Source: Closterium sp. NIES-65 (Eukaryota > Streptophyta > Zygnematophyceae > Desmidiales > Closteriaceae). Taken from it: a stretch of 64,000 nucleotides of DNA. This document shows positions 14,601 to 57,300 of this stretch, piece after piece. The DNA is taken from the NCBI GenBank assembly GCA_948144175.1, contig CANXME010002420.1, forward strand, positions 248,001-312,000. The letters run 5' to 3'. The number at the start of each line of letters is the position of its first letter. The first letter of the stretch is position 1. The notes under the pieces are model-generated. The model was not told the origin of the DNA. It saw nothing but the letters and a program-made list of their open reading frames with translations, and ran no database searches. Both the position numbers and the translations under genes were made by a program.

Positions 14601-17600
14601 CGACCCAAAATGCGCACGCTCAGCGGGAGGGAGGTGGCGACGCACAGCAAGACGTGCAGCAGCATCGCGTGTGGCCCACTGTGAGCGAACAGTGGCATCC
14701 TCAGTAGCAGCAGGGGCGGGAGAGGCACCAGAAGTGAGATCAAAGAGAGAGAGGCCGTCAGCTCTGTCGCACTGTAGGAAAAGCAGTAGGTTGTCTACCC
14801 ATACGTCAAAGTCAATGGCTCTGCCCTCAGCGTCAAAGGCGAGGACACTGGGGGTAGCCATGACAGCAGTAGAGAGAGGGCAGTGCGCAGAGTAAAGCTC
14901 AGTTTTCACCAGACAGGGCAGTGCAGGGCGGGCTCGGGCGGCTCGGGCAGCTCGGGCGGCTCGACTGCTGGGCGGCTCGGGCGACTCGGCGGCTCGGGCG
15001 GCATTGCAGCTGGGGCGGCTCGGCTGCTGGGGCGGCTCGGCTGCTGGGGCGGCTCGGCTGCTAGGGCGGCTCGGCTGCTGGGGCGGCTCGGCTGCTAGGG
15101 CGGCTCGGCTGCTGGGGCGGCTTTGCTGCTGGGGCGGCGGGGCCGGGAGATGCAGGGGCGGGGCCGTCAGGTGCAGCGGCGGGCCGACCGGTGCAGCGGC
15201 GGGCCGGCAGGTGAAGCGGCGGGGCCGACAGGTGAAGCTGCGGGCCGACGGGTGCAGCGGCGGGCCGTAGGGTGCAGCGGCGGGCCGTAGGGTGCAGCGG
15301 CGGGCCGGCAGGTGCAGTGGTGGGGGCCGGCAGGTGAAGCGGCGGGCCGGCAGGTGCAGCGGCGGGCCGGCAGGTGCAGCGGCGGGCCGGCAGGTGCAGC
15401 GGCGGGCCGGCAGGTGCAGCGGCGGGCCGGTAGGTGCAGCGGCGGGCCGGCACAGGGGACGGCGGGGCCGTCAGGTGTAGCTGCGGGGCCTGCTGAGGGG
15501 ACGGCGGGGCCGTCAAGGTGCAGCGGCGTGAGAGCCGGGGCGGGGCCGCGTCAGGGCCGGCGGCGGGGCCGCGTCAGAGCCGGCGGCGGGGCCTCGTCGT
15601 GGCGGGCGGGGCCGCGTTGGAGCCGATGGCGAGGCCGGCTAAGAGCCGGCGGCGGGGCCGCGTCAGAGCCGACAGTGGGGCCGCGTCAGGGCCGGCGGCG
15701 GGCCGCGACGTAGCGGGCGGCGGGGCCGCGTCAGAGCCGGCGGCGAGGCCGCGTCAGTGTAGGCAGCAGGGCCGCGTTAAGTAGGCGGCGGGGCCGCGAT
15801 CAGGAGGGGTGGCGGGGCCGCGTCTGAGGGACAGCGGGTCCGCGAGGGAAATGGCGACCCGAAGGGTCGCTAAAAAAAAATTGCGCGCCTCGGGGCGCGC
15901 TTCGGTGGGCCCTAAAAAAAACGGTCCTTAGAAGGACCCGCTCTATACCATGTGAAACAAGTGAAACAGGAATGAAATGACTAAGGAAAGATTGGGTACA
16001 AATACAACCCTAGAAACCCTGTACCCCATATGTGCTACCCCACTATAGCCTATAGCAATTATGTCATATAAATCTGACACTACATTCATCGAACCTCTAA
16101 CGGGAGACAAGGGGCGCAGTCACAGGGGTGTGGAAGATAAGGGCAAAAAGACAGGCACACAAGGACAAAGGCATAAATAAAGACGAGTGCAGTATGACAT
16201 GTACCGTCTACATTCATCAAACCTCTAATGGGAGACAAGGGGCGCAGTGTCAGGGGTGTCAAAGATAAAGGCAAAAAGACAGGCATAGGACGACAGAGAC
16301 ATAAATAAACACAAGTGCAGTATGCCATGTACCGTCTACATTCATTGAACATCTGGCAACTCACATATTGTCACCATGGAATGCCAGCTCTGCTGGGTGC
16401 AGTCTGACTGAGATGTACCGTCTACATTCATTGAACCTCTGGTGGGTACTTGCTCGCTGTTGCCAGAAATGGTTAGCTCTCTCAAGCTCAGTCTGCGACA
16501 TGCCGTGACCTGTCGATTACATTCAGAGAAGCTCGTGTGGTGCTCATTCCTCATTGCCGTGCAAGGCCAGCTCAGTCAGGTCAGTTGCAATCAGACACGT
16601 GACGTGAACCCGTCCACATTCGTTGAACCTGCTTTAGTATCAGCTGAAGTGTGGCGCGCGCCCATCTATATTCATTGGATTAGACACTCTTGTGGTACTC
16701 ACGCGTTGTTGCCATGGAAGGCCAGCTCAGTCGATCCAGAGTCAGAGAAAGCCCAGTTGAGGCTGTTGCTGCCATTGAAACTGACTGGTACCGCCCCTCC
16801 GTCCCCTTCTGATCGAGAGAACCTGGAGGCAGAAGAGGGTTGGAGGGGAAGGGAAGGGGAAAAGCCCAGATGATGCTGCTACTGCCATTGAAGCTTACTG
16901 ATACCGCCCCTCATTCCCCTCTGATCGAGAGAACCTGCAAATAGGAGGGGGTGGGTGGGTTGGAGGGGAAGGGAAGGGGAAAAGCCCAGATGATGATGCT
17001 GCCACTGAAGCTCTCTGGCACAGCCCTTCTGTTTCCTCCTGATTGAGAGGACCTGCAGACAGGAGAGCGTGGATTGGCAAGGGGAGAGGGGAAGTTCAGA
17101 TGAGGCTGCTGCTGCCATTGAAACTCACTGGTACTGCCTTTCCGTCCCCTTCTGATCGAGAGAACCTGCAGGCAGAAGAGGGTTGGAGGGAGGGAGAGGG
17201 GTTGAGGAGGAGAGAGGTCGGGAGGAAAAGGAGGGAGAGGAGTTGAGGAGGAGAGAAGGCGAGAGGACAAGGAAAGGGAGAGCCCAGGTGGTGATGTTTC
17301 TGTCACTGAAGCAAGCTGACTTTTGAGTCGACTCAAAAGTCAGCTTGAGGAGGAGAGAGGGTGAGAGGACAGGGAGAGGGTGAGAGGACAGGGAGAGGGA
17401 GAGCCCAGGTGGTGATGTTTTGGCAGCTGAAGCAGAAGCAGGAGCTGCCCCTTTGTCCATTTGGGATCAACACGTGAAAGAAGAGTGTTTCTGAGACGTC
17501 TAAAAAGCACTCTTCTTTCACGAGGGAGAGCCCAGGTGGTGATGTTGCTGCCACTGAAGCAGGAGCTGCTCCTCCGTCTATTTGGGAGCGAGACAACCTG

Positions 17601-18259
17601 TGGGCAGGAGCAGGAGGAGCAGAAGTAGGAGCGGGAGGCGCAGAATAAGGAGCAGGAAATGGAGGAGAGGTAGCAGCAAAACACACCAACTCAATGATAC
17701 ACGCATCCACCATCCACCATCTCAATGAGATATACCACTCTTTTCATGGGTCGACTCAAAAAATCATCTACCACGATGAGAATTCACCGTGGGAAATAGG
17801 TGAGTTTTTGAGACGTCTTGGAAACTCACTTATTTCACGTGACTCAAAAAAACATCCACCAGAATTCACCATTCGCCTCACCTCGTGTCATCCACATCAC
17901 ATCACCTCGTTTCACTCCACCCACTTGATAATTTTGCCGCCGTTACTTCCAGATGTCAACTCAGGCGTCCCAATCGAAAACCCATCAGAAGGCGCCACGT
18001 CAGACTGGCTGTACCCGCTGATGTAGTACGCGCCCACGCTGCTTCCCCGAAGGTTCCCGATCACGCAATCCGCGGGGTACATACGGCCGTGGTTTGCCGC
18101 CCAGCCGACGGAGAACCAGCCGGACTCGGCCCCACTCGCGGGTTTGGCTTCTAGTGCGAACTGCAGGCGCGAGGCGTTGAGGGTCCAATGCAGCACCAGA
18201 CTGGGCGTGGGGAGGGGAGAGGAGGCGGAGATGGAAGGGGAGGAAGAGGTTTGGGAAGA

Positions 18260-18322
<63 letters not shown>

Positions 18323-18827: not shown

Positions 18828-20151
18828 GAGTAAAGGGTAAGTATGACGAAATTTGTTACGATGCGAATGAAGAATGCGGACCGAGTCGAAGCTCGTAGTG
18901 AAACTTTATATTCTGCGGTAAAAGAATTATTTTTGCAACGCGAATCTTCTTGCTCGAGTGAAGGCCGTTACTTGTACTTCGGGAAAAAAATTTATACAGA
19001 GCGCCGCGACATAGGACCATGTGCAGTTTGCTTCATCAGGGCGACGTGCGGAGTCAAGTGCAGGGGCTTCGAACAGGGGCTTCGACTCGGGAAAGGCTGG
19101 ATCTGTTTGGATCAAGTGCATTAGGGCGTGGTGCTTCTGGCACAAGTCCCTAAGTTTGCCTTTTTAATCGATTTCACCCTTTTGAAGTTCGATTGTGAGG
19201 TCGAGAAGTTGATTTTGTGAAATTCGAGTCGCGGGGCCAATTTCTGCCAAGTCAAAAGGCGACCATCGAGGGTCGAAAAACGAGATTCGACCTTCTCCGA
19301 GTCGCGAGGACAAATGTAGGTTACCCGATGTAGTCTACGCGGCTCTGGCATTGTGGTCGAAATCGTCATCGTTGATGTCGTCATGCTTCGTCACGTTCGT
19401 GAAGCTGCTGAATATACGCAGAAATGACCACGTTCGAAACCACGCTTCGAATCCAAGTTCGAACATGCGTTCGACTGACTGTGTGGTTACTTGACTTACC
19501 AGGTCAATAATTGAACGCAGACCTGGTTCCATGCGAAGATAATTGCGACATTCCCAAAGCAAGTAACCAGCTCGAGCTCGACCAGTTTTCTGAACTTTGA
19601 ATTAAAAGTACCGCGCCCTTATGCTGTTGTATTTGGATTCTTAGTGGTTTAGCTGGGTTGAGTGGGTACTGACCGAACCAGGTGAGAGTGTTAACGTGTT
19701 TCGGCACTCGTTACCCTACTCAACCGTGTAAGACCGTTATTTGAAAGTAGAAGAATGTAAAGCATCCCACTGAGCCGCATTCAAACGTTTTCTTTTGACA
19801 TGCCCTGAAGACATTTGGCGGTGGCGGTGCGGGCTCCATCCAAAGGGAGGTCGAGTTGATTGTGTAAATTGCGTGGCAGCGGAGGCCACGCGCGTGTAGA
19901 GTGGTAATTGGCTGTTGCCAGCGAAGCGATGGGCGTATGCCTGTAACCACGAATTACCGATGCGATCCGGATCTTGCAGGGTCGTACGTAGGTGGCAGTT
20001 GATTGGACAGGACGAGCATTGTACGCCATTAATGCAATGGTTTCCCCCGGTCGTTGGATGCGCACCGCACGAAAAAGATCGACGGCTTTGGTTTCCCATC
20101 ACTGGTTGTGTAGTGGCTGTTTCTCTGGAGTCTGGTAATTCGAGAGATTTA
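18828..20151. other. Intergenic DNA, nothing recognised
   Basis: Upstream of the DOMON gene. Several TTCGA/TCGAA-rich stretches at 18880-19480, no coding or RNA gene supported. It should hold the DOMON promoter. Confidence 0.5.
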
Positions 20152-20818
20152 CTGTAGAACCTGGATTAGTGATTCGTTTTTACTCGCGTGGCTTTAAATT
20201 ACTCGAGTGGCTACCGAATTTGGCGATAATTACTCGAGTGGCCACGCCTGGGGATTCCCGCTAGTTTTGTTTTACCTGGCGCATTACACCTACAAGGGTT
20301 TGTACCCCTGAAACCTCTGTAATGATTAATGCGCGATCTTCAATATCCGAAATTTATGATCGGACCCCGTATGACCTCGCCTGATTGGACGCGCATTGCA
20401 AAACAAAGCACCGCGCATATAATCGATCTATCATGCGTGGTCATTTAATGTCCCACACATTGACGCCCGGGCATTGCAGTTTATGATCGCGGAAATATAT
20501 GATCGGGCATTAATATATGATGCGCCCGACCATTAATAACCGCGCATGATTGGTCGACTATATGCGCGTCCAATCAGGCGCGGTCATATAGAATCACGAA
20601 CATAAATTTCGAATATAAATCATCACGCTAAAACATCCATTATAAATCATCTCGTAAATTGAAAATCGCGCAATTATCAATACAGAGGTTTCGGGGATAC
20701 GAACCCTTGTAGGGTAATGCGCTGGGAAAAAAATAGCCAGCAGGAATCCCCTGGCGCGGCCACTAGCGTAATTCGAAGCCATGCGAGTAAGGATGAATCA
20801 CCGATCCAGGTTCTACAG
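20152..20818. mobile_element. Long-inverted-repeat MITE with TA target duplication
   Basis: 667 bp. The ends CTGTAGAACCTGGAT and its complement are perfect for about 15 bp, then match imperfectly for about 150 bp (both arms carry TACAAGGGTT and GAAACCTCTGTA). TA flanks both ends (20150-20151, 20819-20820), as expected for Tc1/mariner-type non-autonomous elements. The middle is rich in GCGCATGATTGG-like inverted segments. A 24-bp tandem (GGTTCTACAGTAATTCTCTC) follows to 20865. Confidence 0.75.
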
Positions 20819-21013
20819 TAATTCTCTCCTGGAGGTTCTACAGTAATTCTCTCCTGGAGGTTCACTCCATTCTATTTATCCTATTCAATTCTTGAAATAA
20901 CAACTCAAGTTCACATGCTAACAAATACCAATGCTGCGCAATCAGTTATCCAGACGAGCACTGGGCCATGTTCTTATGAGGCCCAAAAATATATCTTAAC
21001 AAGTGCTATACGA

Positions 21014-24000
21014 TCAATTGTTCTCAGGGCGACCACTGGCCCATGTGGTGTCCTTATGAGGCGCGAGAATAGCCTCCACTTCTTTCAGCATTGTCTCATC
21101 AATGCCTCGCTCAGCTGCTTCGATAACCGCTGCCACATTCTCCCGCACCTGCTCACACAACAAGTGAAAAGCGAGGGACACAGAGCTCATTTGGCACTTG
21201 ATCCCGTTGATGCCTCGCCTTGCAGCCTCAATCACTGCTACTGCTACATTCTCCCTCACCTGCACGCGCAGAGAAGGGCAGGAGCTAGCATGGAACTTGG
21301 AATACAATCCACGTGCGTATCTTGCACCCAGGGAACATGAAAAAAAAAGAAAAAAAGAGAGGACACATGAAGTTATGATTGCTACCCAGCCCACACAGCA
21401 ACACTTCAACGCGTCACTTCCCGATACTCCCAACATTTCGTCCCTCACCTGCTGCACTGTGCTCATGCCCACAAGCGTCGTGGTGATGGCTGGGTTGAGC
21501 GTTGCAAACTGGAGGGCCAGTGCGGGTGATCAGCCTCCCTGCTGCTACACACACCGCCACACCACTGCTACTCACACAAGCACCGTTTCAAACGCTCATC
21601 ACCCAACAACCTTCAAACGCTTCTCCCCTCTCACCTGCTTCACTGTGCTCATGCCCACATCGTGACGGCTGGGTTGAGCGTTGTGAATTGGAGGGCCAAC
21701 CGACGCACTCACTCCCCTTCCTACCATGCACACCACCACACCTTTCCCTACTGGTGATTGAACGCTTCTCCCCCCTCACCTGCTGCACTGTGCTCATGCC
21801 CACAAGCGTCGTGGTGATGGCTGGGTTGAGCGTTGCAAACAGGAGAACATCAAACTCCTGGTTACTATGCTTATTGCTCACTACACGACACTGCCAACAT
21901 TTCTCCCCTCGAGGTGACTTTTGAGTCGACTCAAAAGTCACCTCGTTACCATGGCACATTTCTCCCCTCACCTGCTGCACCGTGCTCATGCCCACAAGCG
22001 TCGTCGTGATGGCGGGGTTGAGCGTTGCGAATTGGAGGGCCAGGCGGGGCAGCGATGCTCCCCGCTGCTGACAGGCCAGTGCTGCTGCCTTGCATGCATC
22101 CTGACAGTTACGAAGACAGAGCGGAAGAGAGAGGGAGTATTGTTATAGTCTCTAAGTGAAAAAAAAAACGTTCTATCCAGTCTAACTTCGAGAGAGGGCA
22201 AGAAGGAGGGCACTGCTAAGCCACGAGCTGGATTGAGTGTGGCAAATAGAAGGCCCAGTCGGGGAAGCGATGCTCCCCGCTGCTGACAGGCCAGAGCTGC
22301 CGCCTTGCGAGGCGCCTCAAAAGTCGGTAGGTGCCTAGAAAAATGCTGACAGGCCAGTGCTGCCGCCTTGCATGCATCCTGATGGTGAGAATGACAGAGG
22401 GAGGGAGGGGGGCAGGCGACAGGCATGCGAAAGGCCAGCGAAGGGCAGGCGTGGAATGATCCCCACATGAGTCTGCCTTGCTTTCAAAGTGCGTGTTGAT
22501 TCGACTCAAAACACACCTGAGTCGACTCAAAACACACCTGAGTCGACTCAAAACACACCTGAGTCGACTCAAAACACACCTGAGTCGACTCAAAACACAC
22601 CTGAGTCGACTCAAAACACGAGAGGCCAGCGAAGGGCGGGCCTGAAATGATCCCAACATGAGTCTGACTTGCTTTCCACTATTTGGAGCCACATACCTTG
22701 AGGGGCTGCGGTGCGGGGTGCCAGGAGGGGGGTCCCTGGGGGGTGAGCAGGCCCATAGAGAGAGGAGACGCGCTGATGACTCCCACGCCCTGCTGCTGCA
22801 GCCACGGCAGCAGCGGCCCAAGCGTCGTGTCGTTGAGTGAGTAGTGGCAGTAGGAGAGGATGAGATCGAGAGCGCCGGGAGAGAGGCGGGGGAGAACGGA
22901 TCGATAGACGGAGAGAGGGAGGCCTGTGATGCCGATGAATCGGATCTTGCTGGCCGCTTTCAGCTCCTGGAGGGCCGGGATTGTCTCATTCACGATCTGG
23001 GGACGGGGAGGAGGGGAGGAAAAGGGGGAGAGAGAGGGGAGGGGGATTGATGGCATGTTTGATGGGAGGAGAGATGTCAGATTGAAACCAGGGAGCAGTG
23101 GGAGTAGCGCTGAACAATGTCTAGATACAGAGTAGCTTTGAGTCAACTCAAAACTAGGAACAAGGGAGCAGTAGGAGCGGCACTGAACAATGTCCGCCCA
23201 CTCCCACTGCTCCCTTGCTCCCATCTGTCCAGATACAGCGTCTGCAGCCTGCCTGGCACAGCTCTCCTTTTTTTGAGTCGACTCAAAAACAAGGGAGCAG
23301 TGGGAGTGGCACTGAACAATGTCCAGATACAGCGCTTGCAGCCTGGCACAGCTCTCCTCCACGCTTTTTCTGACCTGATCCGCATTGTCCATCGCTCACC
23401 TGATCCAGACTCCCAAACTCAATGTCGTGGCACTGCACGATATCCAGGTAAGGCGTCTGCAGCCGCGCACAGCTCTCCTCACCTGATCCAAGGATCCAGC
23501 TCTCCTTCACGCCACACTCCTTCTGATCCGATCTGCACCGGTCTATCTCTCCCGCTCACCTGATCCAACGATCCAAATTCAATGGCATGGCACTGCATGA
23601 TATCCAAGTAAGGTGTCTGCAGCCTGGCACAGCTCTCCTCCACGCTCTTTCTGATCCGATCCGCGCTGAATTCGAATTCGTCCTGCCCGTACCGCCCCAC
23701 CTTGGTGGCAACCACACATACACACCCTTCCCCTCCTCCTGCCTCCTCACCTGATCCAGACTTCCAAACTCAATGTCGTGGCACTGAACGATATCCAGGT
23801 AAGGTGTCTGCAGCCGCGCACAGCTCTCCTCCACGCTCTTTCTGATCCGATCCGCGCTGAAGTCGAATTCGTCCTGCCCGTACCGCCCCACCTTGGTAGC
23901 AATTACCACATCCTCCCGCGGGCATGGCAGCGTGGCAATGGCACGCCCTAGTACGGTCTCGGCTCGTGTGGAGCCGTAGAACCTGCAAAAGTGGAGAGCC

Positions 24001-24016
24001 GCAAAGGTGGAGAGAG

Positions 24017-24096
<80 letters not shown>

Positions 24097-25019
24097 GAAG
24101 CACTGGAATCAATCAAGTCAAACCCGTCCTCCCCATACCGCCCCACCTTGGTGGCAAGCAGCAGCACCACGTCTCCCCGCCCGCGCGCGCACGGCAGCGT
24201 GGCGATAGCCCGTCCTGGCCCTGACTCTGCTCAGGTAGACCCGTAGAACCTGCAGGCAGGGAGCAGAAGGCGGAGGGAGGGGAGGGGAGCAAGCACTGGA
24301 ACCAAACTCGTCGATTTTTGAGGCGCCTAAAAAATCGTCCAAGTTTTGAGGCGCCTCAGAAGGCGGAGGGAGGGGAGGGGAGCAAGAACTGGAACCAAAC
24401 TCGTCCTGCCCGGGTGGAACCCGTCGAACCTGGAAGCACGGGTCTGCGGGTACAAGGAGATAAAACACTGAAGGCGGTCTCATCTGGGCTGGGCCGTACC
24501 GCCCCTGTCCTCGCGCCCTCCTACTCGTCGATCGCGTCGAGCACACCTTTTATCAGTGACACATGACACGACCAACTAGACTAAGGACACGTACGGCGAG
24601 ACGTCAAAGAGGTTAATTCCGAGTTTAACGGCCTCGTGCACGGCCCGCACGCCCTCCTCCTCGTCGATCTCCTCGAATACGCTCCCCAACGGCGACGCAC
24701 CGAAACTCACGATCGAGAGGTCCAGACCCGTGCGACCCAGCGGGCGACGCGGCAGCGACATCGCAGTCGTCGCAGCGTCGGTCGCCGTCGCAGCGTCGGT
24801 CGGGAACGAATGAGCGGCGGAAAATCGAGAGCGAAGGACGGGGGATGCGGAAGTTAGAGGCGCTGCGGAAACTGCGAGGTAGGTGCGGCGGTAGCTCGTG
24901 GAAAGGCGAGGAGAGCTGAGGTGTAGACGACGAGCGGCACTAAATAGGCAGAGCGGGGTTTCCAACGGTGAGCAGTGATGTCGAAAGTTCAGATTTCTCG
25001 CGTGGAGATTCAGGGTCAT
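21014..25019 (-). CDS. GalDH: L-galactose dehydrogenase
   Basis: Aldo/keto-reductase that oxidises L-galactose to L-galactono-1,4-lactone in plant ascorbate synthesis, normally cytosolic. Exons: 24761-24595, 23982-23751, 22996-22697, 22100-21972, 21148-21014. Phases fit (2,0,0,0), giving 320 aa, close to the usual length near 319. Recognisable: PLGRTGL and SFGASPLGSVF at the start, VVIATKVGRYGQDEFDFSA, DIVQCHDIEFGSLDQ, FIGITGLPLSVYRSVLP, ILSYCHYSLNDTTLGPLLPW, GVGVISASPLSMGLLTPQGP, TTTLVGMSTVQQ, and KEVEAILAPHKDTTWASG at the end. The Tyr of SPYYGG is Phe here (SP|FYGS across the first intron). I chose Met at 24761; the frame is open to a Met at 25019, which would add 86 basic, Ser-rich residues that could be a transit peptide or just leader. 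Decayed extra copies of exons 2, 4 and 5 fill the introns. Confidence 0.92.
21910..21945. repeat. Palindrome, TCGA core
   Basis: 36-bp perfect palindrome (arms CGAGGTGAC). ACATTTCTCCCCTC occurs directly on both sides. Confidence 0.9.
22307..22325. repeat. Half palindrome, GCGC core
   Basis: GAGGCGCCTCAAAAGTC between two copies of TGCTGACAGGCCAG(A/T)GCTGC; the left arm is missing. Confidence 0.7.
22497..22620. repeat. Tandem array of the TCGA palindrome arm
   Basis: Six copies of a 21-bp unit GAGTCGACTCAAAACACACC(T), led by an inverted arm GTGCGTGTTGA. The array separates two copies of AGGCCAGCGAAGGGC...CATGAGTCTG. Confidence 0.9.
23090..23735 (-). repeat. Extra copies of the 3' half of GalDH exon 2
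   Basis: At least four partial copies (ends near 23562, 23401, 23290 and 23155) repeat ESCARLQTPYLDIVQCH-coding sequence. The 23562 copy keeps a donor and reads like exon 2 with MQCHAIEFGSLDQ. TCGA-type palindromes at 23137-23153 (imperfect, AGTCAACT) and 23271-23288 lie at copy borders. Confidence 0.82.
23271..23288. repeat. Palindrome, TCGA core
   Basis: Exact 18-bp TTTTGAGTCGACTCAAAA; both sides carry GGGAGCAGTGGGAGTGGCAC-type sequence. Confidence 0.88.
24007..24091. repeat. (GA)n microsatellite in GalDH intron 1
   Basis: About 85 bp of GA dinucleotides upstream of the exon 2 acceptor (CT repeats on the coding strand). Confidence 0.9.
24105..24440 (-). repeat. Extra copies of the 5' half of GalDH exon 2 with two GCGC palindromes
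   Basis: 24110-24250 repeats exon 2 from the acceptor to ATKVGRYGEDGFD, out of frame. A further start copy lies near 24428. AGAAGGCGGAGGGAGGGGAG...CCAAACTCGTC is duplicated directly, and the junction (24315-24358) holds TTTTTGAGGCGCCTAAAAAA and TTTTGAGGCGCCTCA. Confidence 0.82.
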
Positions 25020-25786
25020 GCCTTGGTCACTCGGCTCGAGGAGAAAATGCGGCGCAGGGAACGGAGGAGTGCGGGAAACGTGTAGTCAATAGTGACGCGA
25101 ACTAGCGTATGTTCTCGTGTTCTGATGAGTAAGATCGGATCAGGCAACCCAGCCAAGATGGTAGTGTACCGAGAAACAAGAGGCACTCGCCCAGGCGAAG
25201 ACGCGAACTATATAAACCAATGAACTGTTGTGACAGCTGTTCGCAAAGGCGTCATTTCGTGTGCTCCAGTGTAAAATTTGGCCTTGGTAGCGCAGCGAAA
25301 TCGAATGGGTAACATCGGATTTCAGCTGTTTTCGTGAACTCGCCCAAACTGGAACTCGATTCATTCAGCACCCAACTAATTGGGGAATACCTGAGTTGAG
25401 CCTAAATATTGATTAATTAGTCAAATACTTCAACTGGTCCAGATTCTAGTCGCTTCGCGAACCACGCCATGTCGTAAACCCCCTGTTACTGCGGACTGAG
25501 GTTTGAGACGTTTCAAATCAACGCCTTATTAGTGGTTTCGAGTGAGAGCCATTGATTGACGCCTACTAGTAGAAGTAGCTTGTCGAACCACACGGGCCGT
25601 TGAATCACGCGTTACTGCAGACCGCTGCGTGAGTCGACCCAGAAATTGGTCCGATGCAAACTGATAGTTGTTACGAAGGGCCTAGTAGTATTTGCTACTA
25701 GTTGATCCGAAGCGGCCTTTAGAAAGGTCATTGATCCGAAACGGCCTAATAGTTACTAGCAGTAGCCTGTCTAACCGCTTCGGGCC
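25020..25786. other. Divergent intergenic region with copies of the zinc-finger gene start
   Basis: Separates the divergent GalDH and zinc-finger genes and presumably holds both promoters. From 25460 there are two decayed copies of the downstream gene's start (near 25467 and 25590, sharing GTTACTGCGGACTG-like sequence with 25795). The first ends in a palindrome, GTTTGAGACGTTTCAAAT, at 25501-25518. Confidence 0.65.
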
Positions 25787-28301: not shown

Positions 28302-28610
28302 TAACTTTCAATGAATCCAATTCTTGTGCCATCTCCATGCTCCCTAAGATTTGAAATGCATGGCTTCCATGCTGAACACATTCAAATCACATTATGCTCG
28401 TGCTACTGTACGGAGAAAATTAACTTGTCACCTACACTCTATCTTGGAGATTGTAAAAGGAAACGAGGAAACTCAGTAGTGGAGTCAAATCCTTCACACA
28501 CACATCTCCTCTGCAGTTGTCTGATGGTGATGCCTCTGGACTCTCTGGTGACACTTAGTGATCTGGACTCTTGGAATATTGTTCCACCATTTCGTGTAGA
28601 TTCCGTCGAA

Positions 28611-29846: not shown

Positions 29847-29884
29847 GTATGCTTTATCTATCTCACCAGCTCTTCACCTCTTAG

Positions 29885-45300: not shown

Positions 45301-48300
45301 CGTGTTCGGGCCTCTGCTGCAATTTGCCCCGCGACGAACACGAACGTGTTCGAGGTTCGCCCGAACACGCCTTCACAGGCGAACGGCAAACACCTGTTTT
45401 TGCTCAAGGCGTTCGACGAACCGAACAGTGTTCGGTTCGGCAAACGGCTGTGTTTGTGTAGGGGCGAACACGAACGTGTTCGTGTTCGCCCCTTGCTCAC
45501 CCCTAATTGTCACAGCCGGTCTACCTTCAGCCGCTCTCGCACGACAAGCGTCCGTTCTACATTTTTGAGGCGCCTCAAAATGCACCTCACTACACGCGGG
45601 TCACAGCCGCCCCGCCGCTACCTTCAGCCGCTCTCCCACGACAAGCGTCCGTTCTACCTGACCTTGCGGCCTGTTGGTTGGGAGAGTTAGAGCGGAAGTA
45701 AAAAACATACCCTGATTGAGAAGGGAGAGAAAGATGAAGAACAAAAGAGAATTGGGGAGGAGTGAATGTATGATGCCCCAAAACAGAAGCCTATCTATAA
45801 GTGAAAGCACAAAGGCACAGCCACACAGCACAGAAGGATGGTACGACAGCAACACAGCAGTGCAGTACAGCAGTATTAGCACAGCAGCATTTGAGTCGAC
45901 TCAAAAGCAGACTCATTACACGCGGTTTCTACATTGAAAAGTTATTTGTTGCATGACAGGTTGGGAAGAGTGTACAGAGAACACTTGTTCGAGCGAGGCT
46001 TCCAAGGACTCGCCCCCGAATTTCTCCCGCAGCAACACAGCAGTACAGTACAGCAGTATTAGCACAGCAGCATACCAAGCAGAGCAGACAAGACAAGACA
46101 TATTACCATACAATAAGACAGCGAGTGCTCCCTTTGGCCAGAAACCCGTACACCGGAGCGCAGCAAATCATCACGAAACAAAGCAAGCAGGCTGTGAAAC
46201 ACCATACCGTGCAAGTGGTCGGCGAGACTCCTAAGGAACTCGTACATTAGCAACCAAGCAAGATAGCAGCACGTCAACACAGAAGCAGAGCGGCATGGGA
46301 GCAGAACAAGCAGCCCAGCAGCACAGCAAGCACACCACACCCCGTGCAAGTGGTCGGCGAGACTCCTTTTGGGCAGGAACTCGTACACTAGCTAGCAGCC
46401 GTTGATTGCGCCGGTCTTCATGTCTAGCATGGATTCACACAGCAGCACCATATTACCAGCCAGCTTGCTAGCAAAGCAACAAGTCCAGAAGAGACAACAC
46501 ACTGTACCGTGCAAGTGGTCGGCGAGGCTCCCATTGGGCAGGAACTCGTAGACTAGCAGCCGTTGATTCTTCCGCATGCAGTACCCCATCAGCTTCACCT
46601 GCAGGGAGGGGAATGGAAAGCGACAAAGGGAAAAGACAAGGTGGAAATTGGAATCTGTTAACATTGTCAAGCCAGCTGCACTGCACGGCTACGGTGCACT
46701 AACAGCTGTTCATTCTTCTGCATGCAGTAACCCGTCAGCTTCACCTGCATGAAGGGGAAGGGCGAGGAAGGGGAAAAATAAAAGGTGTTACAGAAAGCTG
46801 TACTACAAGTGGACTCAGAATGCAACTGCTGCTGCACCCCACTGCGAGCAGTAACCCATCAGCTTCACCTGCAAGGGGGAGGAAGGGGAAGGCAAAAGGC
46901 ACAGGGTATCGACGCCCTCTAGTCTAGCCCTGTAACAAACTCCTCATCGCCCTGCTCCGCCTCATCCTGCCTGCTCCCCTCCACGCTATCCAGCTACCCC
47001 TATCGCACCTTCTCCCCACCACCAAACATTGGAGCGACTTTTGAGAATTCTCAAAATCCGCTCTGTCGCGCTATTAACACATAGCCTGCGGCTAAGTGTG
47101 AATTGCACAGCAGCTTAAGGTGAGGTTGTACTATATTGCTGTTTGTTTCTTGTACTCATACTTTCGTTTGTGTGCTTGGAATGTACTGTACATATATGGA
47201 GCCGAGCAGGTGGGAGAAGCTCAAGGAATTTGGTGGGGACAGGGTTGAATTCGATTCCAGGCTGGGAATTCGATTCCAGGCTGGGAATTCGATTCAGAGA
47301 ATGCAATTCCAGCTGGAAGTCGGTGCATGCCTAGTGGGCCACTGGGACACAGCTAGCACCTAGAAGCTATCGCGTGCAGCACTGCTGCTATGCGACTTGG
47401 CAACTAGAGTTAGCTTGTGGGACAAGCAACCTAGGCAGAAGGATGGTTGGGACTTAGGCAGGGGAGGATACCTGCTCTGTGCTTTTTGCTTGTTTGTTTC
47501 TCATAATACTGCAATTCGTTTTCCAAACCACGGAGGCAAGCACTTAAAGAGAAGCTCAGGCAAACTGACGGAGCCCTTGCGAGGGAGAGTATTCAGTCTT
47601 GTTACAAACAAGCAAAAAGGGTAGCGGTAGAGAAGTGTACGGGCGCAGAGGCCCGGTGTTAACCACGGCAACAGGGCCGTGAGGCATGAGCGATACGGAT
47701 CCGGATCTACACATCCATCAGTTGCGGTCGGGACAGAGGTATCCCGCTAGGACTATGGAAGGTCGAGAAGAGCCGCCTGTGAAGCCTGGATTTCGTGCAG
47801 ACGGAGGAGTTAACGAAACACAGGGAGAAAAGGGGCCTGATCTGCCGAAGGAGGGTGAGAATCGTCAGGAGAACTTGCCCAGCTCGGTGCACAACTCGCC
47901 AGGACGACAGAGCGAGGCGAGATCTGGGCAGCAAGGATCGCAGCAAGGAACGCCTGAGCGCGGTGAGGCGCACAAACGGGAAGCAGAGCAGAAATTCAGA
48001 GAGGAGAATTTCCGTGGTCTATCCGGAGGGCGCAGTACCACCAGGGGGCCCGAGCAAGGGGGTTGGCCTGCAGGAAGCAGAGAGAGGGAAGCCGCAAGCT
48101 GGGGGACAGGGAGGTCTATGAACATGGCGCCCCCAAAGATCGAAATACCAGACCGCTTCTCAGGGGCACCAGGTGAAGAGCCAACACTGAAGAACTACCT
48201 TATGATGATTGATGATATACGGTACACCTGGGAGAGAGAGGGGTTAGATCCGATAGAATTTTTCAGAGGATTGGGAAGGACTCTGAAAGGGGAGGCACTG

Positions 48301-51300
48301 ACACACTACAGAGTGGAGCGTCAGGGGCTGTTGATGCAGTGCAAGAATGGGGACTTTGCGCAGGGAGAGATCACTGACCGATTTTTGGACACGCTGCGTG
48401 AGCAGTTCCCCGGGCACTCAGCTGAGCGCATGATAGAGTTCCAAGACTTTAAAAGAGGGCGGGCCGAGTCGCTGCTGGCATACTACAACCGGCTGCTGGA
48501 GCTGGCTGAGGATATGGGCTGCGTTGAGGAGCGTACCTTGGTGACGAAATTCCTGGGGGGGTTGGAGGAGGAGCTGATGAATGAAATGAAAACATGTCTG
48601 TACGCTTTGGGGATGAAGGCGAGACTCAGGCAGGTGTATCAAGTGGCGAAAGAAGTGGAGGAAGGGCGGAGGTTCTTTGAAGGCTTGAGAGGAGCAGGCT
48701 CCAGCCGCTTAAACGAGCGAAGGAGACCAGCCTGGGCAGCAGCTGAAGGAAGGAGGGGGGAGGAAGAACGTAGAGAGAAGCCCTGGGAAGACCCAAGGCG
48801 GTGCCATAAGTGTGGAGAAAAGGGACATATACGGAAGGACTGCACAGTGGGCATTGTATGTGACACCTGTGGCGTGGAGGGACACTTCAGGCGAGACTGC
48901 CCCAAGGCTCCCAGCTGCACCAACTGCGGCAAGAAGGGACACACGAAAGAAAGGTGTTACAGCCGAGGAGAGAGGGAGAAAGGGAAGTCCACGAGGGAGC
49001 TGCAGCTGGAAAGGGAGCTGGCGAAATTAAAGGCACAGATGGAGAAGACTCAGGTCAGTGAGGACCCGGAGAAAGCGTTGCTAGCCTGGGAGGAAGACGA
49101 AGAGGAATCAGATGAGGAGGAACCGGAGTATGGTACGATGGCGTTACAACCTAGACCTCGAGAAGAGTTGGGGCTGAGGAGCAAAGGGGTGGACGGCAGA
49201 ACCAATGAAAAGACCTACGAGAGGAGAAGCCCCAAGATACAACAGAGTGGAGATGAGAAGCGGACAGCACGGCGACGGCCTGAGGAGAGAATGGTGTGTC
49301 AGCCTACAGCGTTGGTGGCCGAATCCGGAGCTGTGGCTGTAAGAGGTATACGGGTAGAGAATGCGGTGGTGGACACTGGGGCGCAGAGTGTGCTGATTGG
49401 GAAGAAGTTGGGGGAGCAACTGAAAGCTCAAGGGGACTTGGAGCTAGTGGAACGGGGATTACTCATCATGACGGCGGAAGGGGGAGCACCCAAATGGATG
49501 CCGTGCACAAAGGAGCCAATCGAGATTACGCTGCAGCCTGGGGAAAGGGGTGAGACCAAGATACGAGTGCAGTGCGGGATGACAGAATCGGATGACTACG
49601 ACATCCTGCTAGGCATGGAGCTCCTGTTCAGGTTGGGAGCGACAATATGTACTTGGGAAGAGCGGGTGCAGTACCGTACTGAACGTTGGAAGGAAGGAGG
49701 TGAGCTGGGCGAACTGCCGGTCAGGTTTGTTAAGACAGAACCCAAGAGGGCCTGGAGAGCAGGGGCGGTCAGGGGAGAGAGGAAGAAGTGGAATGGAGAA
49801 AGCGCACTGGCAGGGATGGGGGCAAAGCTGAGTGAGTACGGTGTGACGCTAGTGGAGCTGTTCGGAGGCATAGGGGCGGGGCTTGCAGCAGCCCTAGAGG
49901 CCGGCCTGGAGGTTCAGAAGTGGCATTACATAGAGTTAGATCCGGAGGTGCGTAAGATGGCGTGGAGTCATGCCAGGGCCTTGCAGGAGCGGTATCCAGC
50001 GCAGCTGCGAAAGGAAGTCATAGTAGAGGCAATGAAGAGAGAGCATTGGGATGTAAAGGAGATCAGCAGGCAGGAAGTGAGGAGCTGGGGAAAGGTGGAC
50101 TTACTGGTGGCCGGATGGGAGTGCCAGGGCACTTCTCGGGCAGGCAAGGGAAGAGGGCTGCAGGATGAGCGCACAGGATTAATCAAGAAGCTCCTGGAGG
50201 TCATGGCCTGGATGAGGGAAGAAGGAGAAAAATACGCGTACATCTTGGAGCACGTGGATATGAAGGGAGATCCTCGAGAACCGGTGCGAGCTGTGAGGGA
50301 GATGGTAGAGGCACAGCTAGGGAAGGGAGTGAGTTGGGTGTCAGAGGTCCACTGGTGATCCCCGATCGATCCTACGGAAGGGTTACAGGCACATTTGCCT
50401 GGGGGGTTATGGGCGCACTGACCCGCTACTGAAACAAGCCCTTTTATCCCAATGGTCTAGTGGTTGGGATTCTGAGATGGTATCAGAGCGAAGGTCTCGG
50501 GTTCGAATCCCGGTGTATGCACTTCGGGCATCCCAGTGCGGGGGGGTGTCAGAGGTCCACTGGTGATCCCCGATCGATCCTACGGAAGGGTTACAGGCAC
50601 ATTTGCCTGGGGGGTTATGGGCGCACTGACCCGCTACTGAAACAAGCCCTTTTATCCCAATGGTCTAGTGGTTGGGATTCTGAGATTGGGATGCAGCCCT
50701 GCACGGAGCACGATGCCACCGGTCACGGTGCTACTGGCAGAACGTGCTACCAGAGGAAGAGCTGCGTGCCAGACTGTCTAGGGTGGAGAGGGATGACCGG
50801 AGGATAGTGGAGGATATCCTGGAACCGGGTCGCGTGGCAGCTCCAGTGTGGAAGCCGGACCATCCCCTGCAGCACCAGTGTAACAGGATAGGGGAGGCAC
50901 GACGAGCCTTGCCGACGCTGGTCGCCTACCCAGGAGCCAGGGGGTTTGTTGAAGTGGACGGCCAGCCAGGCCCAGGGATGATATACGACCACAAAAAGAA
51001 AAGGTGGGAGGAGCCGACAGCTCTGGAGAGAGAATTGGCCATGGGTTATCATGCGGGAGCGACGGCAGCACCGGGTATAAGTGAGGAGGCAAGGAGGGCG
51101 GCAGTGGGGAGAGCAATTGATCAACACTCACTTAGATGGCTGATTGGAGAGATGAGAAAGGGGGCAAAGGGACCTGGAGGTAAGAAGGCACGGGGGGAAA
51201 GGGGGTGGCGGAAGCAGCCAGCGTACTCAGCGGTGGAGCTGAAAAAGGAAGTAGGGGCGGAGCCGAGACAAGAGAAGCTGAATGTCACCAAGGGCCCAGA

Positions 51301-54300
51301 GAAGGAATGGGAGATAGGGGCAGATGTGGAGGCAGGGGCGGCAGAGGCGATCAAGCAGCTGCTGAAGGCGCACAGGGGCACATTTGCATACAACCTGCAG
51401 GAGCTGGGGCAGTACAAGGCCGGGGAATTAGAGATAAAGCTCACGACAGAGATACCGACTTACCAGCGCAGGAGGCGCATGAATGCTGAAGATGCAGCCA
51501 TCTGCAAAGAGAAGTGTGAGGAGTTGCTGGCAGCAGGAATCATCCGCCCATCCGAGTCTAGTTACGCAGCGGCCACAGTGGTAGCAGCCAGGAAAGACTT
51601 GACCGGCGCGGTTCTGTCACGACGGATGTGCGGGGACTACCGTGATCTGAATAAGATCACGGAGCCTGACCGCTATCCCATGCCGACTGCAGAGGATATC
51701 TTCGACCTGCTGGAAGGGGCAGTCATCTTCACCACACTGGACCTTAGGCAGGGGTTCAACCAAATTGCCATAAGAGAGGAGGACAAGCGCAAAACCGCTT
51801 TTCACGGGGTGGACGGGTTGTATGAGTATAACAAGATGCCATTCGGCATGCGGAACGCATCTGCCGTGTTCCAACGAGCTATGGATCAGGTACTGCGTGG
51901 CATACCAGCAGCAGCGTGTTATATCGACGATGTGCTGATCTTCAGCAAAACGGACATGCAGCATGTGGAGGACCTGAAGCGGACGCTAGAGGCGATAGCA
52001 GCAGCAGGACTCACCTGCCACCCAGAGAAGTGCAAGATAGCAAGGAGGACAGTGGCGTATCTGGGGTTTGAGGTGAAAGGGGGCAGGCTGGGTATTCAGG
52101 AGGCGAAGGTTAAGGTACTGGACAAGCTGGCACCGCCGAAGGACAAGTCAGGGCTGAGAGCGTTGCTCGGCTTCCTAAACTACTATAGGAAGTTCGTGCC
52201 GAACTTTAGCCGGCGAGCGAACCTCCTGAATCAACTGCTTAGGGAAGGAAAGCGATGGGAGTGGGGAAAGGAGGAAGAGGCGGCCAGACAGGATCTATTA
52301 GAGGCAGTACGAACAGGCACACTGCTGCAGATACCCAGGGCAGATGCTCCCTTCACGCTTTACACTGACTGGAGCTGCATGGGGATGGGGGCAGTCCTGT
52401 GCCAGGAGATTGAGCGAGAGGAGCGAGTGGTAGCATTTGCCAGCCGCAGCTGCAGCCCCACCGAGGCAAATTACTGCTCGTATGAAGGCGAGGGGTTGGC
52501 AGCTGTATGGGGCATCAACCATTTCAGGGTCTACCTGCAGGGGCGTAGGTTTGTGCTGGTAACCGACCACCAGCCTTTGATGTGGCTGATGACAAACCAG
52601 GAACTGACGGGACGGAATGCCCGTTGGGCGATCAAGCTGCTGGGATACGACTTTGAAATCCGCCACCGCCCGGGCAAGACCCTCCAGCATGCTGACGGTC
52701 TGTCTAGGAACCCTCCACCTGTACAGCCCGTGGCGCAGCTGGTAGCCGTAGCACAGGTGCCGGCAGCGGGCTGGGGGCAAGAGAAAGTGGAGAAGAGGCA
52801 GTTAGATGTCTGGGAGGATACCGAGACTCTGGAGTGGATTAAGGGAGGGAGCACGGAGGGCGAGGAGGCCAGTGAAAGGGCAAGGGCCAGGGGGCAGCAT
52901 TACCGTTGGTACCAAGAGCAGCTGCAGCTTCGCACCAGTGAGGGATGGAAGATAGTGCCACAGAAGAAGGACAGAGAAAGGATCATGCGGCGGGTGCATG
53001 GGAAGCTGGGGCATTACGGAACGGCACGCACCAATCAACTGCTGAGAACGATGTACTGGTGGGCAGGGATAAGGAGGGACGTCAAGGAGCTGGTAGATGA
53101 GTGTGCAGCCTGCAGGCGTAACAAAGCAGCACTGGAGAAGGCAAGGGAGGAGCTGCAGTCCCTGCCGATTCGGGGACTGGGCTACCGCTGGTCGCTAGAT
53201 TTGGCTGGGGAATTACCTCTGTCCAAGAAAGGCAAGCAATACATACTCGTGATGGTAGAGCACACCAGTAAGTGGGTAGAGGCCAGGGCACTGCCGAGCA
53301 AGAACAGTGGGCTGATTGCAGAGGCGTTCGTGGAGCAAGTGATCACCAGGTTTGGGGCGTGCGGGGAGGTGTTAACTGACCAGGGTACCGAGTTCAAGGG
53401 CTGCTTTGAAGAGACTTTGCAGGAGCTGCAGATCACTCACCGTGTGACATCAAGGTATCACCCGCAGTCGGATGGGTTAACAGAGCGGCTGATTCAGACG
53501 CTGAAGAGAGGGTTGCGGGCCTACGGGGAGACGAACAAGAGAGGATGGGACCAGGAGCTACACTGGATCCTCGCAGGTTATCGCTTTGCCAAGCAAGCGG
53601 CATTGAAGGACATGTCGCCCTACCATCTGCTGTACGGGAGGCACCCCATCCTACCCGTGGATGCACCGAAGTTGCTAAGTGCGACGGTAGATGCAGACGA
53701 GCCACACCTGTGGGCTGAGCTGGCTAGGAAAAGGGCGGCCTACCTGAAGGAACTGACGCCGTCAGCGCTGGACAACCTCCACGTGGCGCAGCTGAGGGAC
53801 GCCAGACGTTACCAACAGAGGAAGGCAGGAGAGGAGGGCAGCAGACGTAAGGGAGTAGAGACTGGGGAGGAAGTGTACCTGAGGCAGCCCAAGCGAGATA
53901 CGCTGGACCTGCCAGTCGGACCAGAACGCTGGAAGGTGAAGGAGATCCGGCAGTCCGGGGTGCTGGTGCTAGAGGATGAGCGAGGCAGGAGCATCAAGGA
54001 GCACGTTACCAATGTGGCCGCGGCTGGAGAAGGGAAGGGTCAGGCTGTGGGTCCCGAAGCCAGAGTTGCCTGTGCTGGAACTCAGGCTCGGGAGGGGGCA
54101 ATGCAGCCTGAGAAGCAAGGAGAAGGCAGGAGCGGCATCATCACATACACCAGGAGAAAGAAGAGGCAGACAGGCGGTACCGGGACAGACAAGCAGGCAT
54201 GAGAGGATGAGGGTGAGAGAGGAGGTGGAAGTATCCGTCAGGAAGAAACAGGGATTCTGAGAAGGAGGAAGAGAAGAACAGTCAGAAGAGCAGAAGGAGA

Positions 54301-57300
54301 GGAGCTACTTCACGACAGCTCCAACAATACTCCGCCTCATCCTGCTCCCCTCCACGCTATCCAGCTACCCCTATCGTACCTTCTCCCCAACATGTATAAA
54401 GATTTGTTTTGAGACGTCTCAAAACAAATCTTCATACATGTCCCTCCACGATATCCAGCTACCCCTATCGCACCTTCTCCCCGACACCAACCCTCACCTT
54501 AATTCTCCCTCCCTCTATCCCTGCTTACCAGGTGTTTGTGCTCCAGGCGACTCAGCAGCTCCAGCTCTGTCACAAACTCCTTGTCGCCCTGCTCCCCATT
54601 ACCCTGCTGCTCCCCTCCCTTCTATCCTGCTAACACCCACTCCTTCTCCCTCTCCCTTCCCACTCACCAGGTGTTTGTGCTCTAGCCGACTCAGCAGCTC
54701 TAGCTCTGTCACAACTCCTTGTCGCCCTGCTCCCCTCCCTCATTTTACTCTCAAACCCCTATCTATTCCGCATACACCAATCCTTCCAGCACCAGCCTCT
54801 CCCACTCACCAGGTGTTTGTGCTCTAGCCGACTCAGCAGCTCCAGTTCAGTCACAAACTCTTCGTCTCCCTGCTCCCCTCCCTCATCTGTGCACCAACCC
54901 CTCCCTATCTATTCCGCATACACCAACCCTTCCAGCACCAGCGTCTCCCACTCACCAGGTGTTTGTGCTCTAGCCGACTCAGCAGCTCCAGTTCAGTCAC
55001 AAACTCTTCGTCTCCCTGCTCCCCTCCCTCATCTGTGCACCAACCCCTCCCTATCTATTCCGCATACACCAATCCTTCCAGCACCAGCGTCTCCCACTCA
55101 CCAGGTGTTTGTGCTCTAGCCGACTCAGCAGCTCCAGTTCAGTCACAAACTCTTCGTCTCCCTGCTCCCCTCCCTCATCTGTGCACCAACCCCTCCCTAT
55201 CTATCCTGCATACACCAATCCTTCCAGCACCAGCCTCTCCCACTCACCAGGTGTTTGTGCTCTAGCCGACTCAGCAGCTCCAGTTCAGTCACAAACTCTC
55301 CGTCTCCCTGCTCCCCTCCCTCATCTGTGCACCAACCCCTCCCTATCTATTCCGCATACACCAATCCTTCCAGCACCAGCCTCTCCCACTCACCAGGTGT
55401 TTGTGCTCTAGCCGACTCAGCAGCTCCAGCTCAGTCACAAACTCTTCGTCTCCCTGCTCCCCTCCCTCATCTGTGCACCAACCCCTCCCTATCTATTCCG
55501 CATACACCAACCCTTCCAGCACCAGCGTCTCCCACTCACCAGGTGTTTGTGCTCTAGCCAACTCAGCAGCTCCAGTTCAGTCACAAACTCTTCGTCTCCC
55601 TGCTCCCCTCCCTCATCTGTGCACCAACCCCTCCCTATCTATTCCGCATACACCAATCCTTCCAGCACCAGCGTCTCCCACTCACCAGGTGTTTGTGCTC
55701 TAGCCGACTCAGCAGCTCCAGTTCAGTCACAAACTCTTCGTCTCCCTGCTCCCCTCCCTCATCTGTGCACCAACCCCTCCCTATCTATCCTGCATACACC
55801 AATCCTTCCAGCACCAGCCTCTCCCACTCACCAGGTGTTTGTGCTCTAGCCGACTCAGCAGCTCCAGTTCAGTCACAAACTCTTCGTCTCCCTCCTCCCC
55901 TCCCTCATCTGTGCTCCAACCCCTCCCTATCTATTCCGCATACACCAACCCTTCCAGCACCAGCGTCTCCCACTCACCAGGTGTTTGTGCTCTAGCCGAC
56001 TCAGCAGCTCCAGTTCAGTCACAAATAGGGATGGGCATTTGGCCCGGACGGGTCGGGTTACCTGACCCGACCCGCCTAAAATGGCGGGTCGGGTCAGGAA
56101 TGCTGAGAATGTCGACCCGTCCGGGTCGGGTCGGGTTTACCCGGGCGGGTCGGGTCGACCCGTGACCCGTCAATGTGATTTATAGACGGGTATCAGCGAC
56201 CCGCCGGGTCGGGTTGACCCGTCCCGTCCGGGTCGCATACCCAGTCAAATGACAGGGTTACCCGACCCGTTCTCTGCTTAGGGTACAATTTGGAGAGGGG
56301 GAGAACATCAGTTGGTTTTTATGTTTTGTTTCCCTCGACATTCAGATCCAGTCTCTAATCAAGTTAGTAAATCTCCACTCCACCTACCAAAACTCTTACA
56401 GTCTTGACTTCAATGTTAGCACTATTTTAATATTTATATTCATTATAGGCATAGGCGCTCCTGCCTTTCCCAGTGTCGCACGACCAGGGGCGCAGCAGCG
56501 CACTCGCGGGCACGCATTGGCGGGATCGTGTCCCCGCAATAGCGCGATCGCGGCCCCGCATATGCGCGATCGCGGCACCACACTAGGGCAGCGCGATCGC
56601 GGCCACGCATTGGCGGGATCGCATCCCCGCAATAGCGCGATAGCGGCCTTGCAGTAGCGCGAACGCCACCAGCCAGAATCGCGGTCCCCACCTCCAGCAT
56701 CGCGAACACCACCTGGAGCAGCGCCAAGGCGCCACCATACCCTGCTGCTATGTAGCATATTTTGATCCGACCCGACCCGACCCGTGGTGTAACCGACCCG
56801 GTTACGGGTCACAAATACCCGTTCCAACGGGGCGGGTCGGGTCACCAAAACAGAGTCAAACCTGACCCGCTAACCCGACCCGACCCGACCCGTTAAGCTA
56901 ACGGGTCGCCCTAAACGGGACGGGTCGGGCCGGGTCGGGCCAGATGCCCATGCCTAGTCACAAACTCTTCGTCTCCCTGCTCCCCTCCCTCATCTGTGCA
57001 CCAACCCCTCCCTATCTATCCTGCATACACCAATCCTTCCAGCACCAGCCTCTCCCAATCACCAGGTGTTTGTGCTCCAGTCGACTCAGCAGCTCCAGTT
57101 CAGTCACAAACTCTTCGTCTCCCTGCTCCCCTCCCTCATCTGTGCACCAACCCCTCCCTATCTATTCCGCATGCACCAATCCTTCCAGCACCAGCCTCTC
57201 CCACTCACCAGGTGTTTGTGCTCCAGTCGACTCAGCAGCTCCAGTTCAGTCACAAACTCTTCGTCTCCCTGCTCCCCTCCTCCTTGCTTCAGCACCTTCA

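Follow-up and report, generated by a model that had tools for sequence, protein, structure and literature searches.

Short palindromes at the junctions of small tandem duplications in a Closterium genome: candidate interspersed elements inserted at staggered breaks

The 64-kb stretch of DNA from the freshwater green alga Closterium analysed here (hereafter the window), which we infer to be nuclear from its retrotransposons and apparent introns, holds 23 loci of a family of short palindromes (Table 1). They share the tip TTTTGAGNNNNCTCAAAA (TTTTGAG-N4-CTCAAAA, an 18-mer in its complete form), with TCGA, ACGT, GCGC or AATT as the core and TCAA at one locus; two doubtful tips (17744 and 25501) were dropped from this set. 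The exact tip occurred at nine sites in the window and at none in 100 dinucleotide shuffles, a control suggested in a preliminary description of this DNA, and with up to three mismatches it occurred at 32 sites, six of which (22494–22599) form a single 21-bp array, whereas shuffles gave 2.05 such sites on average and never more than 6. A scan for quasi-palindromes of any kind found 25 in the window and 0–3 in five block shuffles of its bases; 16 of the 25 were centred on the tip, and one more lay between two tips. Given these exact, mismatch and quasi-palindrome counts, a chance origin is rejected and the palindromes are confirmed as real.

The sites named in the preliminary description were all present, at coordinates off by 0–3 bases, and its four palindromic cores were correct. 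It had also counted about 25 loci with constant arms; only nine 18-mers are complete, and the others carry mismatches. One side is damaged at 33957, 37420 and 63829, and 43587 is merely the first part of a 22-bp array. The centre was self-complementary at 30 of the 32 sites and 22 of the 23 loci. Of the two exceptional sites, 23136 reads TCAA, perhaps a TCGA altered by CpG decay, and 17832 reads GTGA and belongs to the adjoining locus 17806. Only two of the 120 matches listed for this pattern in viral contigs had a self-complementary centre. None of the loci lay within the 29.4 kb treated as retrotransposon DNA (limits rough for 1–16000), and two retrotransposons were inserted inside palindromes.

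Table 1. Palindromic loci in the window and the direct copies that flank them
Positions	Feature	Flanking copies and remarks
17312–17347	TCGA-core palindrome, 36 bp, perfect	17229–17313 and 17348–17434
17473–17522	ACGT-core palindrome, about 50–52 bp, imperfect	17395–17466 and 17522–17587
17789–17840	ACGT-core palindrome, decayed, 52-bp insert	17753–17788 and 17841–17870, identity 78%
21910–21945	TCGA-core palindrome, 36 bp, perfect	21862–21909 and 21946–21968 (second lacks ~25 bp); by inspection, fails rule
22307–22343	GCGC-core palindrome, left side diverged	22281–22306 and 22344–22369
22486–22618	TCGA-core palindrome grown into 21-bp array, ~6 units	22428–22485 and 22619–22676
23122–23158	TCAA-core palindrome	23086–23121 and 23159–23194
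23270–23289	TCGA-core palindrome	23158–23268 (extra internal DNA) and about 23289–23358; by inspection, fails rule
24313–24356	GCGC-core tips, two side by side	24264–24312 and 24357–24405, identity 98%
26130–26159	GCGC-core palindrome	26055–26129 and 26160–26233
27298–27329	TCGA-core palindrome, short right arm	27204–27297 and 27330–27413
30638–30668	TCGA-core palindrome, decayed, absent from preliminary description	30571–30637 and 30669–30733
33957–33974	ACGT-core tip with a single long arm	No adjacent duplication found
34128–34169	AATT-core palindrome	34047–34127 and 34170–34250, identity 98%
34251–34273	TCGA-core palindrome	34228–34250 and 34274–34296, identical over 23 bp
37170–37191	ACGT-core palindrome, short arms	37136–37169 and 37192–37225; continuous paralogues without palindrome at 36214, 36962
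37402–37452	AATT-core array, left part	Outer copy 37341–37401; LTR-type element 37453–43586 splits array
43587–43856	AATT-core array, right part, 22-bp units	Outer copy 43857–43917
43939–43956	Damaged TCGA-core tip	No adjacent duplication found
45561–45599	GCGC-core palindrome, short left arm	45509–45560 and 45600–45657
45885–46029	145-bp insert starting with TCGA-core tip (45889–45906)	45847–45884 and 46030–46067; by inspection, fails rule
47022–47063	AATT-core palindrome	46955–47021 and 54330–54392; right arm cut by Ty3-type element 47064–54317
54390–54441	ACGT-core palindrome, 52 bp, one mismatch	54348–54392 and 54442–54486
63829–63846	GCGC-core tip with an arm on the right side only	No adjacent duplication found

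Within a locus, the two sides matched far better than sides taken from different loci (covariation, 22 loci). Central offset 2 was paired in all 22 loci, compared with a mean of 7.8 when sides were shuffled among loci, and offsets 10–18 were paired in 123 of 198 cases (20000 shuffles: mean 67, maximum 99). Pairing at offsets 19–26 exceeded the shuffles weakly (60 of 176 vs 49, p 0.057), so that support for a length of 52 bp comes from four of the five ACGT loci; at the fifth (37171) the arms are short, as they are at the TCGA loci. Most loci have TTTTGAG on one or both sides, and the centre is the conserved part, the ends being alike only among some loci and not conserved between core classes. 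Several loci of one core class have similar arms, which suggests palindrome lengths of about 36 and 52 bp, although the arm -TGAC is common to only 5 of 9 TCGA loci, and 22 arm pairs from different sites agree at 11 or more of 17 positions (200 random sets: mean 2.1, maximum 8), these pairs not being independent because both sides of each site were used and one pair lies inside the split array. Local copying may account for the arm similarity between 45563 and 45889, which lie 330 bp apart. The preliminary description regarded each locus as a private hairpin; the arms are indeed partly private, but several loci have related arms, the likeness holding at set distances from the centre, and for this reason the palindromes look as if they were passed on as a family and not made anew at each site.

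At 20 of the 23 loci, the palindrome occupies the seam between two direct copies of about 23–94 bp each (17 loci by rule and three, 21919, 23271 and 45889, by inspection); no adjacent duplication was found at 33957, 43939 or 63829. The two dropped tips likewise failed the separate test described below, and counting them gives 20 of 25. The preliminary description did not report these seams. All duplication rules were set only after the loci had been seen, and the random-position controls were inflated by tandem arrays in the region: the rule held for 17/23 loci and 632/3000 random positions, and its strict form for 12/23 and 377/3000. In a separate test with a gap of at most 60 bp, in which the 23 loci included the doubtful tips 17744 and 25501 and omitted the arrays 22494 and 37420, the figures were 13/23 loci and 382/2000 random positions; a tighter rule (score ≥40, gap ≤60 bp, centre ≥8 bp inside on both sides) held for 11/23 loci, counted by hand, and 73/2000 random positions. 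Locus 37171 has uninterrupted paralogues without the insert at 36214 and 36962, and locus 27309 has one at 28097. Given that these palindrome-free sites are continuous, palindrome and duplication probably arose in one event. Duplication length varies widely between loci, and we know of no integrase that accounts for such variable lengths.

From this one 64-kb window, our leading reading, held with about as much confidence as doubt, is that the palindromes are ultra-short interspersed elements of the Closterium genome that were inserted at staggered breaks with filled-in overhangs. Two nicks on opposite strands, roughly 23–94 bp apart, would produce a break, and a copy of the palindrome (~36 bp long at several TCGA loci and ~52 bp at most of the ACGT loci) derived from another copy would enter it. 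Fill-in of the overhangs would then double the stretch between the nicks and leave the palindrome at the junction. In mammalian cells, fill-in of staggered breaks by CST and polymerase alpha-primase yields small tandem duplications, for which two opposite-strand nicks 43 or 50 bp apart suffice (PMC8355091). The likeness lies in small duplications beside a break, here direct copies of tens of bp at 20/23 junctions; unlike the Closterium loci, the mammalian junctions in the cited passages carry no common palindromic insert. The preliminary description had favoured hairpin opening or end joining over a normal transposon: the position at tandem-duplication seams argues for break repair and end joining, not for a cut-and-paste transposon whose target duplication is short and constant in length, while hairpin opening gained no support. 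The four central bases are self-complementary at almost every locus, whereas a 4-base loop in a folded single strand could vary freely; most likely, then, it is duplex DNA, and not simply a folded strand, that requires the symmetry. A dimeric protein might act on two identical half-sites, or identical halves might be joined via 4-base cohesive ends. Among the points against this reading, neither a source copy nor an autonomous partner or enzyme turned up in the window, duplication lengths vary widely, and three loci show no adjacent duplication.

The palindromes could instead be tiny retroposons, in which a self-complementary RNA of 36–52 nt was copied into a nicked target by a LINE-type reverse transcriptase, with variable duplications and one-sided truncation. 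Duplication length is likewise variable for LINE-mobilised (SINE-like) elements, and one long and one short arm were seen at 27309, 33957, 45563 and 63829, an asymmetry judged by eye in an element without orientation and in a search that required the tip. At 34256, 37171 and 54407 the end of the target overlaps the arm by a few bases, as judged by eye, which fits this origin as well. However, an RNA hairpin can do without a self-complementary 4-base loop, yet all core types have one; no tail was seen by eye on the inserts, Rfam gave no match to a known RNA family at gathering scores, no tRNA gene was found in the window, and no LINE was present among the eight frames scanned. We consider a retroposon origin unlikely.

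Less likely still is filler made on the spot, with repair of staggered breaks giving the tandem duplications and polymerase fold-back the palindromes, and no mobile element involved. The mammalian fill-in duplications (PMC8355091) are in keeping with this, as are the many further spaced or tandem direct copies without a tip in the window (copies 15–170 bp apart are common among the matches listed). By eye, the flanking AACAC appears to serve as the right arm of 33957, the only locus at which arms copied from the flanks seem plausible. Fold-back nevertheless predicts a locus-specific tip, against the recurrence of TTTTGAG, and the outer arms are related between loci.

More doubtful again is a break-end adaptor, in which each staggered end would be capped by the same half-element, made up of an arm, TTTTGAG and a self-complementary overhang of 4 bases, and the capped ends would be joined via the overhang. 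Such an adaptor would explain the self-complementary tetranucleotide centre, the matching arms of each locus and the palindrome at the duplication seam. If this is right, the palindromes would stem from a eukaryotic DNA-end cap, mobile or programmed, and no element known to us resembles one.

Ordinary MITEs, DNA transposons with short terminal inverted repeats, are short, non-coding and interspersed with inverted ends, and the loci are likewise palindromic, interspersed and repeated in gene-rich DNA, but MITEs have conserved ends and short target duplications of fixed length, whereas the copies here span 23 to about 94 bp and the ends differ between core classes; this origin is very unlikely and was rejected on duplication length. 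A sequencing or assembly artefact or an adapter, suggested by the palindromic form alone, is scarcely credible, as the flanking copies of rule-passing loci differ by 0–24%, the palindromes bear mutations of their own and have four cores, and the two retrotransposons sit inside them.

Symmetrical sister introns and stwintrons that proliferate in Hypoxylaceae fungi (PMC8469720) are likewise nearly identical to their own reverse complement and palindromic at the centre, and entry by break repair is discussed for them. They are spliceosomal introns (93 and 207 nt in the examples given) and, unlike the Closterium palindromes, flanked at 20/23 loci, have no short tandem duplications beside them in the cited passages. 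Bacterial REPs are high-copy palindromic repeats of 20–40 bp, but in the description cited (PMC3733652) they are prokaryotic and carry a GTAG or CGTC tag at one end; by eye, no such shared tag was seen on the Closterium arms. The short palindromic repeats spreading in green algal organelles (PMC7235400) are, in the part cited, mitochondrial and plastid and GC-rich, whereas the window is taken as nuclear. No nuclear family of this form was matched in searches of the open-licence PubMed Central literature; the main text of the Closterium genome-size paper (PMC10407611) lacks the words hairpin and inverted, and Closterium is absent from an inverted-repeat survey (PMC13155455). In viral contigs, TTTTGAGTCGACTCAAAA and GACTTTTGAGNNNNCTCAAAAGTC had no matches and the ACGT and GCGC 18-mers one each, and TTTTGAGTCGACTCAAAA had four matches in a bacterial and archaeal genome collection (257 billion bases; chance expectation about 3.7). 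These scans, from which entries close to the source genome may be missing, gave no sign of a link between the tip and viruses or prokaryotes.

What is new here is the position of the palindromes at the junctions of flanking duplications, observed at 20 of 23 loci. The self-complementary centre leads to a specific prediction for the enzyme, which would either recognise its site as a dimer or work through cohesive ends of 4 bases. Should the family hold up across the genome, these would be among the smallest interspersed inserts known to us in a nuclear genome, with the entire element a palindrome and most copies marking a small tandem duplication. They would then constitute a natural record of staggered-break repair and gene-piece duplication in an alga close to land plants.

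Nine exact copies of the tip, the 18-mer TTTTGAG-N4-CTCAAAA at the centre of each palindrome, were found in the window and none in 100 shuffles; allowing up to three mismatches, there were 32 sites, against about two in shuffles. From these 32 sites we derived 23 loci, named by tip position, leaving out 17744 and 25501 as doubtful, assigning 17832 to 17806, joining 24344 to 24316, and treating six array sites as one locus and 43823 and 37420 as one split array; these counts depend on the mismatch limit and inspection, and cover one window of one organism. A tip-blind search returned 25 quasi-palindromes, compared with 0-3 in each of five block shuffles: 16 were centred on a tip, one lay between two tips, one within a tandem array at 5.7 kb, and seven within other inverted-arm repeats at 20.1-20.8, 35.1-35.7, 45.2-45.5, and 56.0-56.9 kb. 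The four-base core (TCGA, ACGT, GCGC, AATT, or once TCAA) was self-complementary in 9/9 exact sites, 30/32 sites with up to three mismatches, and 22/23 loci; in viral contigs with the same pattern, this held for 2/120 among the matches listed.

We took the window to be nuclear DNA of a Closterium (Zygnematophyceae) because of its frame matches together with introns and repeated exon pieces read from the sequence by eye. The polymerase frame 50744-54199 matched Closterium proteins of Ty3 type (76% identity over 83% for the best match, to Closterium sp. NIES-64; 89% over 44% to NIES-54), and frame 28311-29843 had a NIES-54 match of 89% covering 34% of its length.

Alignment of left against right flanks revealed direct copies on either side of the palindrome. 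At 54407, the palindrome's ends and the copies' ends coincide to within three bases. Under a duplication rule fixed only after example loci had been seen, 17/23 loci passed, versus 632/3000 random positions; a tighter rule gave 11/23 versus 73/2000. Rule-passing copies were 23 to 94 bp long and, since their identity ranged over 76-100%, the events may differ in age. Beyond these 17, the duplication at loci 21919, 23271, and 45889 is accompanied by an indel or additional DNA, and flanking duplication was not found at 3/23 loci. Within one duplication copy, 23196-23230 appears by eye to be an inverted copy of nearby sequence (CTCCCACTGCTCCCTTG), possibly a trace of fold-back repair of another kind.

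Direct copies flanking palindromes (window positions)
Left copy	Right copy	Identity	Setting
24264-24312	24357-24405	98%	around two GCGC tips
34047-34127	34170-34250	98%	around AATT palindrome
54348-54392	54442-54486	93%	around 52-bp ACGT palindrome
37341-37401	43857-43917		masked by retrotransposon insertion, visible once flanks joined
46955-47021	54330-54392		masked by retrotransposon insertion, visible once flanks joined

Paralogues at 36214 and 36962 run uninterrupted across the site that, in locus 37171, is occupied by the palindrome and the second copy, as does a paralogue at 28097 across the insertion point of 27309. The order copy-palindrome-copy is the pattern of insertion with long target duplication. 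Cores differ between adjacent loci of one series (34139 AATT and 34256 TCGA; 47039 AATT and 54407 ACGT), and therefore insertions recurred. The left copies of 34139 and 34256 terminate in near-identical sequence (CCCAACGAT and CCCAGCGAT), hinting that a target point was reused. In a single case, judged by eye, the duplication 17753-17788/17841-17870 starts at the centre of the older, decayed tip 17744, a hint that the tip itself could be cut.

The simplest account would start with a staggered break and its fill-in, a palindromic duplex being captured at the junction. Fill-in of paired-nick overhangs yields small tandem duplications in mammalian cells, as far as the account in PMC8355091 extends. 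Distinct here is the captured piece, with a constant tip and symmetric to its very centre. Because the centre is self-complementary in all four core types, the sequences argue for a constraint acting on duplex DNA; a folded single strand would tolerate any four-base loop. That the palindromes are ultra-short mobile elements entering staggered breaks has, in our judgment, about an even chance of being right. A retroposon origin, with hairpin RNA copied by a LINE-type reverse transcriptase, seems unlikely, and repair filler made on the spot is less probable still.

Outward from the centre, TTTTGAG is near-invariant (offsets 3-9 show pairing in 16-21 of the 22 loci, one letter each), and at offsets 10-18, 123/198 positions were paired within loci versus a mean of 67 for sides of different loci. 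Some same-core loci resemble one another in their outer arms. ACGT loci 17489, 17806, and 33957 have (A/T)CGTGA in common at equal distance from the centre, 54407 being a weaker match; such shared arms at fixed distance would give the 52-bp palindrome, and the fifth ACGT locus, 37171, is without this arm. Five TCGA loci (17321, 21919, 27309, 30646, and 34256) have -TGAC adjoining the tip on one or both sides, a feature absent from the remaining four; of the five, 17321 and 21919 form perfect palindromes of 36 bp. GTTGG is common to the AATT array and 47039, to which 34139 bears only a loose resemblance. GCGTGTA(A/G)TGAG occurs on the right side of both 45563 (GCGC) and 45889 (TCGA), possibly through local copying, as these two loci lie 330 bp apart. 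Given these likenesses within and across core classes, arm sequence seems in part to have been inherited and then to have diverged, rather than being entirely private to each locus, and it is not strictly tied to the core. Two palindromes, at 22497-22619 and 43586-43836, have grown into arrays whose half-palindrome units measure 21 bp and 22 bp, respectively, an expansion that hairpin slippage might produce.

None of the 23 loci lay inside retrotransposon DNA, by limits that are approximate, most of all in 1-16000, where 11377-13506, with retroelement matches, was the sole frame tested; those retrotransposons may just have arrived after the palindromes. Both retrotransposons recognised in the gene-rich stretch (37453-43586 and 47064-54317; flanking repeats GAATT and GCTC) sit within AATT-core palindromes, which are perhaps, on two cases only, preferred integration points. 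The second, of Ty3 type, matches zinc-knuckle, reverse transcriptase, RNase H, and integrase, and comparison of its two ends found no long terminal repeat. Because its first frame weakly matches C-5 cytosine methylase (PF00145, below cut-off) and this domain is listed for several Closterium proteins matching the polymerase frame, a group of methylase-bearing retrotransposons may exist. Between its two frames, 50336-50686 holds a pair of identical 143-bp copies separated by 65 bp; GGTATCAGAGC, presumably a primer site, directly follows the first. The arrangement resembles a very small LTR element (TRIM-like). Long tandem arrays at 44585-45159 (134 bp, about four times) and 54527-56025 (146 bp, about ten times) seem exon-like by eye. 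Two other inverted-end repeats, 35078-35730 and 20142-20828, have 30-nt and 70-nt arms, 83-84% complementary, with internal palindromes and 0/23 tip loci inside.

Nearest in spirit are the symmetrical fungal introns, which differ, in what PMC8469720 relates of them, in having no flanking duplications. The Closterium palindromes fall outside MITEs on the criterion of duplication, and REP palindromes, unlike them, are bacterial. By these comparisons, we place them among short palindromic interspersed repeats. Less likely is a break-end adaptor, an identical half capping each break end and the halves joining via a 4-base overhang; if true, it would be categorically new.
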